Positions 122-10,947 of a stretch of DNA of 39,570 nucleotides are shown one piece after another. The first letter of the stretch is position 1. Every line of letters begins with the position of its first letter. Position numbers and translations under genes: made by a program. Below the pieces are notes generated by a model, which saw nothing but the letters and a program-made list of their open reading frames with translations, did not search any database and was not told where the DNA came from. Source of the stretch: Rhodovulum tesquicola (GTDB lineage Bacteria; Pseudomonadota; Alphaproteobacteria; Rhodobacterales; Rhodobacteraceae); contig NZ_JAMYDV010000025.1 of the NCBI RefSeq assembly GCF_024128855.1, forward strand, positions 1 through 39,570. Direction: 5' to 3'.

Positions 122-575
122 TTTACGTTGATCCAAGCGGTCCCTGCGATCGAGGAACCGGAACGGCTCTCGAAACGCGTGCCCGACCGAGACCGGGCGA
201 AGGCCGCCGTGATCGCGCGGGAGTGGAGGCGTCTCCAGCCCGTCCGCAGCTAACGCGCGGCGCTGCGTGTCTCGGACCTCGCGGCATGGAGGGAGGCCCT
301 GCCCGACGGACTCTGGTGGTCGATCCCGCAGGAGGGCGTCGAGGATTTCGTGCGCGAGATCGAGGATCGCGAGACCGACCGAAAGGCCGTTCCGGAATGG
401 CTGGCCGAATGGGGCCGGGATATCCGCAAGCGCCGGGCCGGGACGCTGCTGCTCTCGGCGCACCGGGCCAAGGGGCTGGAATTCGAGGATGTCGTGGTGC
501 TCGACGGCGCGTGGGACATGCGGTCGGCGGGAGAAGACCGCGACGCGGCCCGGCGGCTCACCGCGCAAGAACCAT
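122..575 (+). pseudogene. Decayed C-terminal fragment of a UvrD/Rep-type DNA helicase
   Basis: One reading frame resembles the C-terminal half of superfamily 1 helicases. A stretch reading AVIAREWRRLQPVRS ends at an in-frame TAA (251-253). It is followed in the same frame by LRVSDLAAWREALPDGLWW and then by the motif V-like segment LLLSAHRAKGLEFEDVVVLD with a trailing W-D and GEDRDAARRL. In intact relatives a Y-V-A-M-T-R-A (motif VI) segment follows, but here similarity stops at about 560, exactly where the convergent adenylation gene ends. Roughly 40 residues expected around the internal stop also appear to be missing. The N-terminal Walker motifs are not in the window. I read it as a remnant truncated on the right by insertion or recombination; the helicase subfamily is uncertain. 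Confidence 0.6.
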
Positions 576-3242
576 CCGCGCCAGTTGCAGGCTGAGCTTG
601 GTCCTGCCCTGCCCCCCATTCACATGGTTGATGTCGATGAAATCGGTCGAGTCCAGCGCGAAGGCCTCCCATGGCAGGATCTCGGCGCCGGTGCGGGCAG
701 CGATCCGGTCCAATGCCGCAGTCAGGATCTGTCCGCGTGCGGCGTCGGGCAGTTCGTCAAGCATGGCCTTCTCGGCCGGATGCACAAAGACCACGACACG
801 GTCGCTGACGTCGGCCAGGGCGGCCAGTCCTTGTTCCCACGCGGCCAGCCTCGTCGGGTCCAGAGGCAAGGTGCCAAGGTAGGCGGTGGCGATCACCTTG
901 TCGCGGCTGCGTGCCCAATCGGGTTTGCGCCCGCCGGTTTCTGCGCCCGGTGCCGGAACCCAGTTGCCGCCGCGTTCGGCCGACCATCCGAATTCATCGC
1001 TCAAGGCGCCGGACTCGCGGGACCGGATGCGTCCCGAGAAATATTCCGGTCCGAAGGCGATATCACCAGGCGGTGGCGAGATGCTGACGAGCATGGGATC
1101 GAACTCCCAGATCGCGAGCGGCAACCGCACCTTCTTCTCCCGGCAGGTCTGCGCCACGAATTCCGCGATCGACGCGAGACCCGCGACATCCACCCCCGGC
1201 AACCCGGCGTTCAGAACGGGGTGGCGGTCACCCCGACTGGCCAACTCGTCGCTGAACACATCCGAGGCAAAGCCGCGAAACGTCCCCGAGGACCCGAGCG
1301 CCAGCACCGGCGCCCCCTGCTCCAGCGCGGACGGAAACCGCTCGATGAACTGCAATGCCCGGTTGGCGCGCGGGTTTCGCCCCGGATTCAGCCGGATCTT
1401 CAGCTTTCGCCAGAACCGCTTCAACCCGCCCCGGGCCGAAACGGTCGGAACGGTCAGTTCACTCACGAGGTCATCGAAGGACAGGCCGCTCAGACGCACG
1501 ACATCATCCTGGTCGATATGTCGGCCCCATGACCGTTCGATCTCCAGCGTCAGGGCAACGAAACTGAGGGAATCCATCCCGGCGTCGAACAGGCTGGGCG
1601 CGCTGAGGATCCTGGCACGGTCCAGCAGCGGTGCGGCACCAAGAATGGCTTCCATCAGCAATGCAGCGGCAGGCGCAAGCGGGGGGAGATCCGACTCCAC
1701 CTCACGCGCCGCGATCACCTCGGCGACGGCCTTGCGGTCTACCTTGCCGCTGGAACTGCGCGGAAACAGCGCAAGCGCGTGAATCGCGGAAGGCAGCATG
1801 TACTCCGGCAGCACTCTCTGCAGCCGCGCGGTCAGGGTATCCCGATCGAATTCGCCTTCCAAGACGGCGATGATCCCGCGGACCTCGCCGCCGCCATTCG
1901 GCCATGCCAGCGCCAGCGCGTTGCGTCCATCGGCGGCAGCGCGCAGGGCCGCTTCGATCTCGCCCAGTTCGATCCTGTAGCCACGCAGCTTGATCTGGTT
2001 GTCGGAGCGGCCCAGGAACCGCACCGCGCCATCCGGCCCGACCACGGCGCGGTCGCCGGTCCTGTAGGCCCGTGTGCCGTCGGGAAGGGTGACGAAGGCC
2101 GCCGCAGTGCGACCAGGGTCCGAGAGATAGCCGAACGCCAGCTGGCGCCCGGACAGGAAAAGCTCTCCCGGCTCGCCCGGAGCGAGGTCGGCAAGATCAG
2201 GGCCCAGCACGCGCAGATCCATTCCCGGGAATGCCCGCCCGATGGGAACGTCTGCATCCATCGCGGCAAGGTCGGTTCGGGAAACGGGATGGGACGCGCA
2301 GGCGATGGTGGCCTCGGTCGGGCCATACCAGTTTTCCAAACGGGACGCCGGAGCGGCGGCCGCCCAATCGCGGGCGAGCGCGAGCGGGAGGACCTCGCCA
2401 CAGAAAAGCGAGGATTTCAGGTCCGGAAATGCACCGGGCTGCAACGCGCCCTGCAGCCGCATCTGGGCGGCCAGCGAAGGAACGGAGAACCAGTGCGTGA
2501 TCCGCTTGTCCCGCACCCAGGGACCGGGCGCGCGGAGGTCGGTCTCCGACGGCACGACAAGCGTGGCGCCGCGGGTCAGGCATAGGAAGATGTCATGAAC
2601 CGAGAGATCGAAAGACTGGTCGAAAGTCTGCGAGAACCGGTCGCCTTGCGCCACCGGCAAAAGGGCGGTCGCCGCCTCCAGATAGGCCTCGAGGGCCTCG
2701 GCTGGGACAAGGACACCCTTTGGTGTCCCCGTGCTGCCAGACGTGAAGAGAATGTAGGCTACCCGATCCGTTGTCACGGGCAGGACGCTTTCGGGTGGCG
2801 GGACCGTGCCGGGCAGCGCATGGTCGGCCCGCCTGTCTCCGCAATCGATGCGTGTCAGCGCAAGGTCCGGCGCCGCGCGCAAGATGGATGCGTAGCGGTC
2901 CGACGCCAGGTCCCCCACCACGATCCGGGTCGCGCCCGAGGCGCGCAGGATCGCCGCATTCCGTTCGGTCGGCTGCCTGACGCTGATCGGCACATAGGCA
3001 TGGCCGCGGATCTGCGTCGCCAGGATCGCCGCATAGGACGAGGCATGGCGATGGGCCATGATCGCGGTCACCGGTTGCGCCTTGCCCGGTTCGGCTTGCG
3101 GCAGATCCCGCGCGATGGACCAGGCGACCGCGGCAATCTCGGCATAGGTCCAGACCTCGCCAGCAACGTCGAGCGCCGGATGATCCGGCGTGTCCCGGGC
3201 GTGTCTCAGGATGCGGCCCGCCGCCGCTGCGTCGAAGGTCAT
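558..3242 (-). CDS. Three-domain adenylation-carrier-SGNH protein (NRPS-like, Dlt-like)
   Basis: An 894-residue cytosolic protein. Residues 1-505 are an ANL adenylation domain: A3 FTSGSTGTPKG (about 166-176), A4 FDLSVHDIF, A5 NWYGPTEAT, A7 YRTGD, A8 RGYRIELGEIE, and A10 SSSGK with the catalytic lysine at 500. It should activate an amino or carboxylic acid as an acyl-AMP. The FDLSV segment and FCGE (Cys281) look like D-alanine ligase DltA rather than a standard peptide synthetase. A carrier domain follows, with phosphopantetheine serine 558 in GMDSL. The last 280 residues look SGNH/GDSL-like: GSSGTF (Ser651/652) near the start and a terminal D-I-N-H (870-873) followed by G-G-Q-G. No signal peptide or membrane segment is visible. 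Its ATG overlaps the upstream sulfotransferase stop by one base (TGATG), so the two are coupled. Substrate is unknown; the adenylation and carrier calls are firm, the SGNH call moderate. Confidence 0.85.
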   Translation of the reverse strand: MTFDAAAAGRILRHARDTPDHPALDVAGEVWTYAEIAAVAWSIARDLPQAEPGKAQPVTAIMAHRHASSYAAILATQIRGHAYVPISVRQPTERNAAILRASGATRIVVGDLASDRYASILRAAPDLALTRIDCGDRRADHALPGTVPPPESVLPVTTDRVAYILFTSGSTGTPKGVLVPAEALEAYLEAATALLPVAQGDRFSQTFDQSFDLSVHDIFLCLTRGATLVVPSETDLRAPGPWVRDKRITHWFSVPSLAAQMRLQGALQPGAFPDLKSSLFCGEVLPLALARDWAAAAPASRLENWYGPTEATIACASHPVSRTDLAAMDADVPIGRAFPGMDLRVLGPDLADLAPGEPGELFLSGRQLAFGYLSDPGRTAAAFVTLPDGTRAYRTGDRAVVGPDGAVRFLGRSDNQIKLRGYRIELGEIEAALRAAADGRNALALAWPNGGGEVRGIIAVLEGEFDRDTLTARLQRVLPEYMLPSAIHALALFPRSSSGKVDRKAVAEVIAAREVESDLPPLAPAAALLMEAILGAAPLLDRARILSAPSLFDAGMDSLSFVALTLEIERSWGRHIDQDDVVRLSGLSFDDLVSELTVPTVSARGGLKRFWRKLKIRLNPGRNPRANRALQFIERFPSALEQGAPVLALGSSGTFRGFASDVFSDELASRGDRHPVLNAGLPGVDVAGLASIAEFVAQTCREKKVRLPLAIWEFDPMLVSISPPPGDIAFGPEYFSGRIRSRESGALSDEFGWSAERGGNWVPAPGAETGGRKPDWARSRDKVIATAYLGTLPLDPTRLAAWEQGLAALADVSDRVVVFVHPAEKAMLDELPDAARGQILTAALDRIAARTGAEILPWEAFALDSTDFIDINHVNGGQGRTKLSLQLARMVLAR

Positions 3243-4336
3243 CAAGCCCTGTCCTGCGTGTCAGGGATGGGCGGGCAAAGGGGGACGGTCGCGGCATCCA
3301 GCGCGCGCGTCATCGACCGCTGCCCGTGCTTGTAGAATGGCCCGATCTCCTTGTTGGCAAGGCGCTCGAACATTTCGGTCAACTGGGGCCGGAAACCGGG
3401 CCAGAAACTCGGGCGACCGGGTCGGCGGGGGTAGTCGCAGGGATACCCCAACTGGTCCATCAGATCGCCGAGAAACGCCTCGGTCGAGCGAATGTCACGA
3501 CGCGACAGGCTCTTGCGATACTTGCGAAAATTGCCCGTCATCAGCGGCTTGGCGATGTTTTCTCTCGCACCGATCGTCGCCGCGACGCGGCGCGCGGCAT
3601 CTGACGCATGAAAATCCAGCATTGCCGGTTCGAACGCGAGGCCGAGAAAGGCGCACACGCGCTCAAGCTGCACGGACGCATCGCTCACCAGATCCTCATA
3701 GCGCACCAGGCAGACGCGTTCCGGCCCAAGCAGGGCCAGCGCGGCTAGTCCGCCCTTCTGGTCATCCCTCCAGATGGTCAGCGCCTGGCGGAGCGAGCCG
3801 AACTTGTTTCCCATCCAGCGTTTGCGCAGCGCCTTGGCGGAGGCGAGGAAATCCCGCGGGTCGCGTGTCTGAAACACATATTTCGCGTCCGGAAAGGCCG
3901 TCAGGAGGAACGGCAGCAAATGGTGAAGGTTGTTTTCCTTGACGAAAACATGCCGACCCTTTGCCTCCTCCGGCAATTCCTGCCAGAGGAAGGCGGCGAT
4001 CTCGACGGGGTCGATCCTGTCACGCGCCGAAAACCACGCCTCCAGCCGGTCCGCTTCTGCCGGGTTTCGGTATTTCCGCACCCTCTCGACCGCGTGCGCG
4101 CAAAGGATCTTCCAGGCCGGCCCTGTCACGCCGCCAGCAAGGGTTCGCGGCAGGTTCAGAAGAATGTCCCGGCCAAGGTGGTAGGGAGGGTGCGAATAGA
4201 TCCCGGAATGGGCCCCCATCATGGCACTGATCAGGTTCGATCCGGATCGCTCGGAACAGATCAGGAAAATCGGGGGCGGACAGGTTTGAAGCGCAGGGTT
4301 CACGATTGTCTTTTCCACTCCGGCCCCGGTCCGCAC
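3242..4336 (-). CDS. Sulfotransferase family protein
   Basis: About 364 residues. The PAPS 5'-phosphosulfate loop is SERSGSN near residues 28-34, after a hydrophobic strand (PPIFLIC). A second conserved block, FQTRDPRDFLASAKALRKRW, matches the 3'-phosphate-binding region, and VRYEDLVSDA is a hallmark of PAPS-dependent sulfotransferases. The family moves sulfate from PAPS to hydroxyl or amino groups of glycans, lipids or small molecules; the acceptor cannot be read from sequence. No ATG precedes the PAPS loop, so the start must be GTG: the one at 4336 is used here, and another in-frame GTG lies at 4318. It is first in a two-gene unit with the adenylation-carrier-SGNH gene, whose ATG overlaps its stop codon. 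That coupling suggests both act on one product. Confidence 0.8.
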   Translation of the reverse strand: MRTGAGVEKTIVNPALQTCPPPIFLICSERSGSNLISAMMGAHSGIYSHPPYHLGRDILLNLPRTLAGGVTGPAWKILCAHAVERVRKYRNPAEADRLEAWFSARDRIDPVEIAAFLWQELPEEAKGRHVFVKENNLHHLLPFLLTAFPDAKYVFQTRDPRDFLASAKALRKRWMGNKFGSLRQALTIWRDDQKGGLAALALLGPERVCLVRYEDLVSDASVQLERVCAFLGLAFEPAMLDFHASDAARRVAATIGARENIAKPLMTGNFRKYRKSLSRRDIRSTEAFLGDLMDQLGYPCDYPRRPGRPSFWPGFRPQLTEMFERLANKEIGPFYKHGQRSMTRALDAATVPLCPPIPDTQDRA

Positions 4337-4462
4337 CGTCCCAGGCCAGCGGGATCGGGCGGCGCCACGAGACCTGTCAAGGTTTCGAGTGTGGTTGAAC
4401 TTTGTCCGCCATGCTAACGAACAGGCGACGGACGATCCCCTATCGTAGAGGCAAGGAACAGG

Positions 4463-5371
4463 ATGGCGAAGGTGGTGGCGATCTCGGGTTCAGGCCGGTC
4501 CGGAAGCACGCTGCTTGGCATCATCCTATCGCAGCCAGAGGGCGTCTTCAATCTGGGCCAGATGCGCGACCTGTGGAGCGCGTGGAGCGTCGATGCGCCC
4601 TGCTCCTGCGGCCGCACCCTCAAGACCTGTTCCATCTACGGCGACCTGGTGCCGCGGGTGCTGGACGCGGCGGGTTTTGCCGATGCCATGGCGGTGCACA
4701 AGGCGCAATCATCCTTTCGCAAGGCCGCCGAACGGTCGGCGGACTGGTCCGATCCGACTGCCCGGCGCTCGCTTGCCGAGGCGCACAGCCGATTCCTGTC
4801 CGCCCTGCAGCTTCTTCTTCAAGGCATCACCGAAAGGACCGGGGCGACATTGTTCGTCGACAGTTCGAAATCGCCCGAGATCGCGCTCGCCTTCGACCTG
4901 ATGCGGGACGTCGACCTCTATGTGATCAATCTGCTCCGGGATCCGAGGGCCGTGGCTTGCAGCTGGTTCAGGAAGAAGCCGGATCATTTCGCGGTCCTCC
5001 GAAACATGCGGACCTGGGCGGCCCGACAGACTCGACTTTCCGACTGGGGCGCTGCGCAACCGGGCCGTTTCCTGTCCCTGCGCTACGAGGAATACGCCGC
5101 CAGGCCGCGCGAGACCCTGGTCGCCGTGGCAGACGTCACCGGCCTTGGCCGCATAGACTCCCTGTTCGAGGACGAGGCGCGGATCATGCTGTCCTGGCAG
5201 TCCCAACACCTCTTCCCGCCCGCGAACGAAACGGTTCTGGCAGAGCGGAAGCACGATGTGGTCATACGCCCCGCCGAGACGTGGAAGGCCCCCGAGAACC
5301 GATGGCTGCATCGCATTGCCCGGGTCGGAACCTGGCCGATCGGCCACCGGCTCTACCCTGATCCTGCGTGA
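4463..5371 (+). CDS. Second sulfotransferase family protein
   Basis: 302 residues, starting at an ATG preceded by the purine-rich AGGCAAGGAACAGG. The PAPS loop SGSGRSGST lies at residues 8-16, right after the first beta strand. LLRDPRAVACSWFRKKP resembles the 3'-phosphate-binding block, and LSLRYEEYAARPRETL the conserved R-Y-E-E/D segment. A Cys-rich patch (APCSCGRTLKTCSIYG, about 46-61) is seen in some bacterial deacetylase-like and sulfotransferase families and may bind metal or be structural. It is divergent from the other sulfotransferase, with 126 bp between starts that probably hold both promoters. The two sulfotransferases are dissimilar outside the motifs, so a recent duplication is unlikely. 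The acceptor is unknown. Confidence 0.8.
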   Translation: MAKVVAISGSGRSGSTLLGIILSQPEGVFNLGQMRDLWSAWSVDAPCSCGRTLKTCSIYGDLVPRVLDAAGFADAMAVHKAQSSFRKAAERSADWSDPTARRSLAEAHSRFLSALQLLLQGITERTGATLFVDSSKSPEIALAFDLMRDVDLYVINLLRDPRAVACSWFRKKPDHFAVLRNMRTWAARQTRLSDWGAAQPGRFLSLRYEEYAARPRETLVAVADVTGLGRIDSLFEDEARIMLSWQSQHLFPPANETVLAERKHDVVIRPAETWKAPENRWLHRIARVGTWPIGHRLYPDPA

Positions 5372-5555: not shown

Positions 5556-5631
<76 letters not shown>

Positions 5632-9597: not shown

Positions 9598-10947
9598 CTA
9601 GCGTGCCGGGCGGTCCGCCGCGGCCTCCAGCGCCGGGTAGCGCAGCCCCAGCGTCACCGCGCGCGCCACGAAGGAGATCAGCAGCGCCATCCAGAGCCCG
9701 TGATTGCCGCAGGCCGGGACCAGCGCCAGCGCCGCGACAGCATAGACCGCCGCCGCCACGGCCATCATGTTGCGCATGTCGCGCGTCCGCGTCGCGCCGA
9801 TGAAGATGCCGTCCAGCATGTAGGAGGCCAGCCCGAAGACCGGCGCGGCCACCATCCAGGGCAGGTAATCGCGTGCCGCGGCGCGCACCTCCGCCGATGT
9901 GGTCATCAGGTCGATGATCGCCCCGCCGAACAGCGCGAAGGCAGCCGCCAGCCCGATTACCGTCACCACGCCCCAGAGGCTCGTCATCAGCGCGGCCCGG
10001 CGCAGTGTGGCGCGGGCGCGCGCGCCCATCGCCTGGCCCACCAGCGCCTCGGCCGCAAAGGCGAAACCGTCCAGCGCATAGGCGGTGATTTCCAGGAATT
10101 GCAGCAGCACCTGATTGGCCGCCAGCGGCACATCCCCGAAACCCGCCGCGACGAACAGGAACGAGACGAAGATCGCCTGAAGCAGCAGCGACCGGATCAG
10201 GATGTCGGTATTGACGGCGGCCATGTGGCGCAGGCGCGCGGGCTCGAACACGCGCGCGCTCTCGCGCCAGGCCGCGCTGCGGAACGCGCCACGGCACAGC
10301 CACAGCCCCAGCCCGGCCCCGGTCCATTCCGCGAGGAAGGTGGCGACCGCTACCCCCTGCACGCCCCAGCCCAGCCCGAGCACGAACCAGAAATCGAGGA
10401 GGATGTTGACCGAGTTCATCCATAATTGCATAATCAGCACCGCCCGCGTGCGGCCCTGCGCGATCAGCCAGCCGGTGATGCCGAACAGCCCGATGGCAGC
10501 GGGGGCCGACCAGATGCGGATCGCCATGTAGTCGCGGGCCAGCGCCTCGACCTCGGCGCTGGCGGGCGCGATCCGGAACGCCCCGGCGAACAGGGGCCAT
10601 TGAAGCGCGATCAGCACCAGCCCCGCCGCCCCCCCAATCAGCAGCGCGCGCGACAGCATCGCGTCGACCTCGCCCCGGTCGCCCGCGCCCCAGGCCTGGG
10701 CGGTCAGCCCGGTGGTGCCCATCCGCAGGAAGCCGAACACCCAGTAGATCGCGGCCAGGATGATCGCGCCGATGCCGACCCCGCCGATGGGGGCGGCCTC
10801 GCCCATCTGGCCGACGACGCCGGTATCGACCGCGCCCAGGATCGGCACGGTGGCATTCGACAGCACGATGGGCAGGGCGATGGCCAGGACCCGGCGGTGG
10901 GTCAGCGGGGGCGGCGCAGGCGCGGCCCCGGCGGCGCTGTCAGCCAT
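9598..10947 (-). CDS. MATE family efflux transporter (DinF-like)
   Basis: 449 residues with about twelve hydrophobic segments in two pseudo-symmetric halves, the multidrug and toxic compound extrusion layout. Typical features are the N-terminal helix IALPIVLSNATVPILGAVDTGVVGQ, the GIGAIILAAIYWVFGFLRMGTTGLTAQAWGAGD stretch between helices 2 and 3, and the matching start of the second half. The acidic residue of AVDTGVVG fits the DinF branch, which exports compounds in exchange for protons or sodium. The start codon overlaps the end of the upstream thioesterase gene by eight bases, so it is last in a three-gene minus-strand operon with two hotdog proteins. The substrate is not predictable. Confidence 0.85.
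   Translation of the reverse strand: MADSAAGAAPAPPPLTHRRVLAIALPIVLSNATVPILGAVDTGVVGQMGEAAPIGGVGIGAIILAAIYWVFGFLRMGTTGLTAQAWGAGDRGEVDAMLSRALLIGGAAGLVLIALQWPLFAGAFRIAPASAEVEALARDYMAIRIWSAPAAIGLFGITGWLIAQGRTRAVLIMQLWMNSVNILLDFWFVLGLGWGVQGVAVATFLAEWTGAGLGLWLCRGAFRSAAWRESARVFEPARLRHMAAVNTDILIRSLLLQAIFVSFLFVAAGFGDVPLAANQVLLQFLEITAYALDGFAFAAEALVGQAMGARARATLRRAALMTSLWGVVTVIGLAAAFALFGGAIIDLMTTSAEVRAAARDYLPWMVAAPVFGLASYMLDGIFIGATRTRDMRNMMAVAAAVYAVAALALVPACGNHGLWMALLISFVARAVTLGLRYPALEAAADRPAR

Follow-up and report, generated by a model that had tools for sequence, protein, structure and literature searches.

Two described systems lie close to the locus considered here. The Dlt pathway of teichoic acid D-alanylation divides its work among DltA, DltC, DltB, DltX and DltD, while lipid A glycylation in Vibrio cholerae relies on AlmEFG, where AlmG is of the lysophospholipid-acyltransferase type and not an SGNH protein; we know of no sulfotransferase in the latter system. 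In the MBOAT-SGNH acylations of the envelope (Dlt, Pat), passages of PMC12148441 describe a membrane MBOAT protein that exports the acyl group before the SGNH protein uses it, and pairs of the PatA/PatB type that act outside the membrane with an acyl-tyrosine donor. The Rhodovulum tesquicola locus analysed below combines an adenylation, a carrier and an SGNH domain in one polypeptide and places them beside sulfotransferase genes.

The window, i.e., the whole stretch of 39,570 nucleotides that was analysed, is an entire contig of the R. tesquicola genome (3.52 Mb, 80 contigs, 99.9% complete). A reading frame is open at 558-3245 on the reverse strand, and from the ATG at 3242 it encodes a protein of 894 amino acids (558..3242, alternative start TTG at 3245), of which the genome holds a single full-length copy. 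The protein consists of an adenylation domain (residues ~1-510, 1713..3242, reverse strand), a carrier or PCP domain (residues ~520-590, 1473..1685, reverse strand) and a C-terminal SGNH domain (residues 595-894, 561..1460, reverse strand). A preliminary description of this DNA had read these three domains in one chain, and FDLSV, FCGE, Ser558, GSSG (650-653) and DINH (870-873) are indeed found where it placed them. The sulfotransferase gene ST-A (3242..4336, reverse strand; PF13469, 1.1e-29) precedes the enzyme gene and is translationally coupled to it, its stop codon and the ATG of the enzyme overlapping by one base in TGATG (3240-3244). Divergently oriented, a second sulfotransferase gene, ST-B (4463..5371, forward strand), matches the same family (PF13469, 2.3e-12); the bit scores are 104.6 for ST-A and 48.1 for ST-B with a curated cut-off of 27. 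The genome contains five PF13469 genes, two of which are those of the cassette. The two divergent transcripts have in common an intergenic region between ST-A and ST-B (4337..4462), and a promoter scan of 4200-4600 gave no sigma-70-like site.

On its other side the enzyme gene is 557 bp from the contig end. There, at 350-595 on the forward strand, lies an 81-aa scrap of a family of ~1730-aa reading frames, which we take by motif to be UvrD-like helicases, and it ends at the cassette edge; long open homologs of this family occur in three genomes of the genus and on another R. tesquicola contig (C42). The opposite side of the cassette is flanked by a tRNA-Ala(GGC) gene (5556-5631, reverse strand). 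With the scrap and the tRNA as flanks, the cassette looks like an island-type insertion.

The preliminary description had proposed searching for proteins with the same domain order and listing their neighbours. A single scan of a collection of species genomes returned relatives of the chain at 37 loci (L006-L042); as L038 and L028 share one contig and count as a single locus, there are 36 other distinct loci, among whose neighbours sulfotransferases recur widely. With 36 other loci from one scan, the architecture is not due to chance. The complete chain is visible in 33 of them; it is cut or interrupted in L013 and L042, and in L039 the adenylation domain alone is seen before the contig ends. 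The alignment used throughout has 35 rows, including the window protein and the duplicate L038, after removal of L013 and L039 (contig ends) and L042 (a run of N). All hosts of the 36 loci are Proteobacteria except one Verrucomicrobial bin (L017); by record names they comprise Rhodobacterales, Woeseiaceae, Steroidobacteraceae, other Gammaproteobacteria, Burkholderiales, Caulobacteraceae, Rhodospirillales and that one Verrucomicrobiales bin. In the latter, the gene next in the locus (L017, 3161-6949) encodes a sulfatase fused to glycoside hydrolase family 2 domains.

The enzyme is rare and patchy: with R. tesquicola counted each time, it was found in 7 of the 394 genomes sampled from the family, in 3 of the 16 sampled from the genus, and in 3 of 398 genomes of a phylum sample, one of these three having only a stand-alone relative of the SGNH domain. 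In the tree, the Rhodobacterales rows fall into three separate groups, and the window protein clusters with L008 and with L012 (Rhodovulum steppense), adjoining Woeseiaceae and their kin, which suggests that the enzyme has been transferred between lineages. No description of an A-PCP-SGNH protein was recognised in the open-licence literature, where absence is not absence in print. Two annotated plasmid records label relatives of the chain as "non-ribosomal peptide synthetase".

The adenylation domain is recognised by Pfam (PF00501, AMP-binding, 1.6e-58) and, above its cut-off, by TIGR01733 of NCBIfam; over the whole chain, the top PDB match is linear gramicidin synthase. With the ten pocket positions placed through the PheA numbering, the pocket code reads DLHSLCWIAK in 26 of the 35 rows, with Asp, His, Trp and Lys invariant; the other nine rows have an altered code, the outlier being L031 (DFHMVGWVLK). 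The corresponding codes, taken from PDB alignments with the customary Lys as tenth position, are DLHSFCLIAK for AlmE, DLMSLCTVAK for DltA and DCFSLALITK for IdnL7, so that 8 of 10 positions are identical between the window protein and AlmE and 7 of 10 between it and DltA. In the pocket region, the scores of IdnL7 (E 2.4e-23) and 8k4r (9.3e-23) are slightly above that of AlmE (3.5e-22), with DltA well below (2.2e-15). The product of AlmE is reported to be glycyl-AMP and the substrates of IdnL7 to be Gly, L-Ala and L-Ser (in part of PMC11253843). The counterparts of AlmE L248 and C316 are kept, but the same pair occurs in DltA and hence does not discriminate between glycine and D-alanine; Cys281 (codon 2400-2402, reverse strand) is conserved in 31 of 35 rows. 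More telling are the pocket His, which is common to the window protein and AlmE and is Met in DltA, and a Trp at the position of Leu in AlmE and of the smaller Thr in DltA, where a change of residue has been tied to the space for the methyl group of D-Ala (passage in PMC11253843). Because of these two positions, glycine would be the first guess as the substrate, somewhat likelier than D-alanine, and alanine of either hand the second.

That the locus is a Dlt-like system for D-alanine, as proposed earlier, would agree with the seven pocket residues common to DltA, among them the Leu and Cys described as contacting the methyl group of D-Ala (passage in PMC11253843), and with a match to the DltA equivalog model TIGR01734 at E 1.3e-81; AlmE itself, moreover, is stated to be able to mis-activate D-Ala (in part of PMC12930378). 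We nevertheless regard D-alanylation as quite improbable, as the equivalog score of 274.7 bits is about half the cut-off of 559.85, the Met and Thr of the DltA pocket are here His and Trp, and neither DltB nor DltD has a match in the genome. Of the earlier assignment of a DltA-like adenylation domain, what stands is a pocket of the DltA/AlmE type; it is one residue closer to AlmE, and D-alanine as first choice does not hold.

The carrier domain is matched weakly by the PP-binding model of Pfam (E 0.0065; 17.1 bits, below the cut-off of 20.8), and its serine (Ser558, codon 1569-1571, reverse strand) is present in all 35 rows, as are the G, D and S of the GMDS motif. For the C-terminal domain, searches of Pfam with E up to 1 gave no SGNH or DltD match in any of the 35 rows, and among PDB chains searched by sequence profile none was better than E 0.48. 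An AlphaFold2 model of the domain built from the 35 sequences has a mean pLDDT of 91.4 and is predicted to fold as an SGNH protein, as anticipated from its motifs in the preliminary description, which had suggested this structural check. In a Foldseek search of 350,542 PDB chains, the best match is DltD of Enterococcus faecalis (6o93; E 2.1e-5, probability 1.00), with TM-scores of 0.50/0.40 that are moderate and indicate a fold class and not close kinship; GDSL esterases, other DltD proteins and PatB follow.

With blocks assigned by eye, G-S-S, the Gly of block II and the last His, that of block V, are invariant (35/35), whereas the Asp of DxxH is Asp in 20, Asn in 14 and Thr in one of the 35 rows (reverse-strand codons: Ser651/Ser652 1287-1292, Asp870 633-635, His873 624-626). 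As the SGNH nucleophile usually lies in a GxS pattern, the second serine (652) may be the nucleophile rather than Ser651, both being invariant. Block III, as judged from the alignment with coordinates left aside, has an apparently invariant Glu (in W/Y-E-F/L-D-P) and not Asn; SGNH transferases that function without the block III Asn have been described (passages of PMC9487903). A further link comes from a stand-alone protein in another genome (G716), which matches the profile of the SGNH domain (E 3.8e-12; hhalign probability 98.3, E 1.8e-14), begins before a preceding MBOAT gene (PF03062, 1.9e-23) has ended, and reaches E 1.9e-4 and 21.3 bits with DltD (PF04914), just below the cut-off of 22.7. 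This sequence relationship supports the view that the SGNH domain is DltD-like.

The same domain could, however, be a thioesterase or a proof-reading hydrolase, the aminoacyl carrier then serving some other, unlinked acyltransferase. SGNH esterases do rank high in the fold search, and thioesterase I turns up with weak profile scores (E of 1.2 or more), but DltD, which heads the fold matches, is a transferase, and in sequence the domain is linked to an MBOAT-partnered protein. Furthermore, a hydrolase fused to its own carrier would waste ATP, and acyltransferase families are absent from the commonest neighbours. We consider a hydrolase improbable and retain the DltD-like transferase.

Regarding export, no match to the MBOAT family (PF03062) or to DltD (PF04914) was obtained at E <= 0.001 in the whole R. 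tesquicola genome, the same searches being positive in 3 and 2 of 14 control genomes, respectively. The remark in the preliminary description that no DltB-like MBOAT protein is visible can accordingly be extended to the genome. Its allusion to a Dlt system fares less well: there is no DltB, no Pfam match to DltD, and the DltA equivalog score is half the cut-off. Over 38 rows, the highest mean hydropathy of 19 residues ranges from 1.19 to 1.84 and falls at differing places along the protein; the maximum of the window protein (1.83) falls where the carrier domain begins. The classic mark is 1.6, and several rows, including the window protein, exceed it. A membrane-bound SGNH domain is weakly disfavoured, as the maxima share no common place even though some are above the mark. 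An amphipathic membrane helix in the linker was also considered and rejected, the tested 14-mer having a moment of 0.50, outside the ten highest of the protein. The enzyme is probably cytosolic, the stretch of 1.83 counting against this.

The preliminary description had stressed a sulfotransferase translationally coupled to the enzyme and another one beside it, and both prove to be PF13469 proteins whose association with the enzyme is conserved across loci. The link is real and the coupled ST-A exists, but the firmest partner is the divergent ST-B. ST-B is within 2.6 kb of the enzyme in 32 of the 36 distinct loci, in one of which (L022) the contig edge leaves just 34 residues of it. It is some 10-11 kb away on the same contig in L030 and L042 and on another contig in L019, and none was seen in the genome of the Verrucomicrobial bin L017; the plasmid loci L049 and L050, outside the 36-locus count, have it too. 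Within the genus, to which the examination of ST-B without the enzyme was confined, the ST-B profile (E <= 1e-60) matches the 3 enzyme-bearing genomes among the 16 and no others. ST-A is found in 22 of the 36 loci, the copy of L006 being an internally deleted remnant, and in 15 of the 36 the vicinity shows either no ST-A or just a remnant, two of these loci being cut by a contig edge. The remnant (9605-9970, 122 aa) keeps both ends and has lost the middle; no ST-A occurs in L007, L009 and L010, and some of the Woeseiaceae-type loci appear to have lost the gene.

A third sulfotransferase overlaps the stop of the enzyme in L023, L024, L027 and L029 (PF03567 in L023). ST-A and the enzyme are fused in a single frame of 1212-1266 aa in six loci of one clade (support 100/100), and ST-B is fused to ST-A in three Burkholderiales loci, two of them near-copies (669-702 aa). 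None of 13 control loci, namely nine outgroup loci and four other adenylation-domain loci of R. tesquicola (flanks of 1.5 kb), has ST-A, ST-B or the third sulfotransferase. The tie between sulfotransferases and enzyme is not due to chance; the loci are not independent lineages. A second ST-B-like gene is present on R. tesquicola contig C34 (L083, 11809-12744; profile E 1.5e-93). Its PAPS-loop and NLGQ motifs are altered, its start resembles that of the R. steppense ST-B, and no copy of the enzyme lies there; it is perhaps decaying.

By sequence, the closest solved relatives of ST-A are the sulfotransferase domains of olefin synthase (OLS) and CurM. For ST-B, a sequence search of the PDB gave no match; in Foldseek ranked by E-value, the OLS and CurM domains lead and tyrosylprotein sulfotransferases come next, with higher TM-scores. 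Cys47, Cys49 and Cys56 of ST-B, invariant in 27 of 27 aligned sequences, perhaps form a metal site. Among the neighbours at large, a census of 209 of 266 reading frames (107 + 102) within about 6 kb, limited to the 25 commonest families, found Sulfotransfer_3 in 15 + 21 frames and every other family, apart from Sulfotransfer_1, in at most six; no family but the sulfotransferases recurs widely enough to hint at the acceptor.

These observations keep a small metabolite in contention. The cassette might be a minimal specialised-metabolite pathway whose product is a small, diffusible, sulfated aminoacyl compound, with sulfotransferases acting on the product, either on the carrier or after its release, as in curacin and the olefin synthases, and with SGNH as release domain. 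The OLS and CurM domains are described as sulfating a beta-hydroxyacyl substrate ahead of thioesterase release (passages of PMC3903477); their proximity to ST-A in sequence and to ST-B in fold, the six loci in which ST-A is fused to the module, and a neighbourhood that makes the cassette look self-contained all agree with such a pathway. However, the pocket suits glycine or alanine, neither of which has a hydroxyl to sulfate, Pfam finds neither a condensation nor a ketosynthase domain in the chain, and one clade lies within glycan export clusters. On balance, a metabolite appears rather unlikely.

Modification of a larger acceptor draws on these last loci. Rhamnose synthesis, sugar transferase and polysaccharide export genes accompany the enzyme on the Leisingera plasmid pBMJM1_7, as do glycosyltransferases, UDP-galactopyranose mutase and an ABC exporter in Phaeobacter sp. 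G2, and L025, L026, L028 and L042 have glycan gene clusters like those of these two Roseobacteraceae plasmids. Glycosyltransferases are absent from the 25 commonest neighbour families in the group formed by L006-L020, L031 and L040, and the scanned neighbours in the window (to 8262) include no glycan genes, the other side being the contig end. Relatives of the adenylation domain alone are near NeuB (L045, with nucleotide-sugar genes and a GNAT-carrier protein, both recognised by eye in the translations) and near a CDP-glycerol transferase (L076, with a separate carrier). Because one clade is in glycan loci and adenylation-domain relatives are near glycan genes, a glycan or glycolipid is favoured as acceptor. 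In an operon of a Saprospiraceae bin (L044, 9974-14829), an adenylation domain sharing the ENWYGPTE motif is accompanied by an 80-aa carrier-like frame, assigned by motif, an MBOAT protein and a DUF1574-like protein, apparently a Dlt-like set in Bacteroidota. The DUF1574-like protein was rejected as a link to the SGNH domain (hhalign probability 0.3), and L044 is related through the adenylation domain only.

It can thus be hypothesized that the enzyme is a single-chain, probably cytosolic aminoacyl O-transferase of the Dlt/Alm kind, working without MBOAT export on an acceptor that is also sulfated and is probably the precursor of a surface glycan or glycolipid; this may well be so, even if we stop short of calling it probable. 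From the family and the pocket, the adenylation domain would use ATP to activate a small alpha-amino acid (glycine being the most likely) and load it onto the phosphopantetheine of the enzyme's own carrier domain. The DltD-like SGNH serine would then take the aminoacyl group directly from the carrier and pass it to a hydroxyl of the acceptor, in a cytosolic counterpart of the work done across the membrane by DltB, DltX and DltD. In view of the conserved neighbourhood and the gene fusions, ST-B, often with ST-A and sometimes with a third sulfotransferase, would transfer sulfate from PAPS, for which the required APS kinase is encoded in the R. tesquicola genome, onto the same acceptor. This acceptor would most likely be a precursor, still in the cytosol, of a surface glycan or glycolipid, and the product would combine a positively charged amino group with a negatively charged sulfate.

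More doubtful, and advanced only tentatively, is the broader proposal that a DltD-like SGNH transferase is fed by a carrier of the same chain with no MBOAT or acyl-tyrosine shuttle, and that aminoacylation of an envelope polymer in the cytosol together with PAPS-dependent sulfation yields a zwitterionic surface glycan or lipid that has not been described. If true, the SGNH step of such systems can be fed directly, a compact enzyme for attaching amino acids to hydroxyls would be at hand, and doubly modified molecules would be expected in Rhodobacterales, Woeseiaceae and others.

With regard to known systems, the locus shares with the Dlt pathway an amino acid ligase, a carrier with a phosphopantetheine serine and an SGNH domain of DltD fold; it differs in uniting these in one chain, in the lack of an MBOAT match in the genome, in its Gram-negative hosts, in a pocket slightly nearer to a glycine ligase and in having sulfotransferases as fixed partners. 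AlmEFG is likewise Gram-negative, and AlmE has 8 of 10 pocket residues in common with the enzyme, but AlmE, AlmF and AlmG are separate proteins, whereas here the carrier is within the same chain and the genes that recur nearby encode sulfotransferases. MBOAT-SGNH pairs such as PatA/PatB have a comparable SGNH domain, and the stand-alone relative of the present domain is partnered by an MBOAT protein; the donor, however, would here be the fused carrier. A single-module NRPS with a release domain also has adenylation and PCP domains; in the present chain there is no condensation domain (Pfam, E up to 0.1) and SGNH replaces the alpha/beta-hydrolase thioesterase. The sulfotransferase domains of CurM and olefin synthase, nearest among solved structures to ST-A and first for ST-B by Foldseek E-value, are parts of polyketide modules, unlike ST-A and ST-B, which lie beside the A-PCP-SGNH chain or are fused to it. 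By the tests made, the enzyme is a member of neither the Dlt nor the Alm pathway, though it resembles a compressed form of the two.
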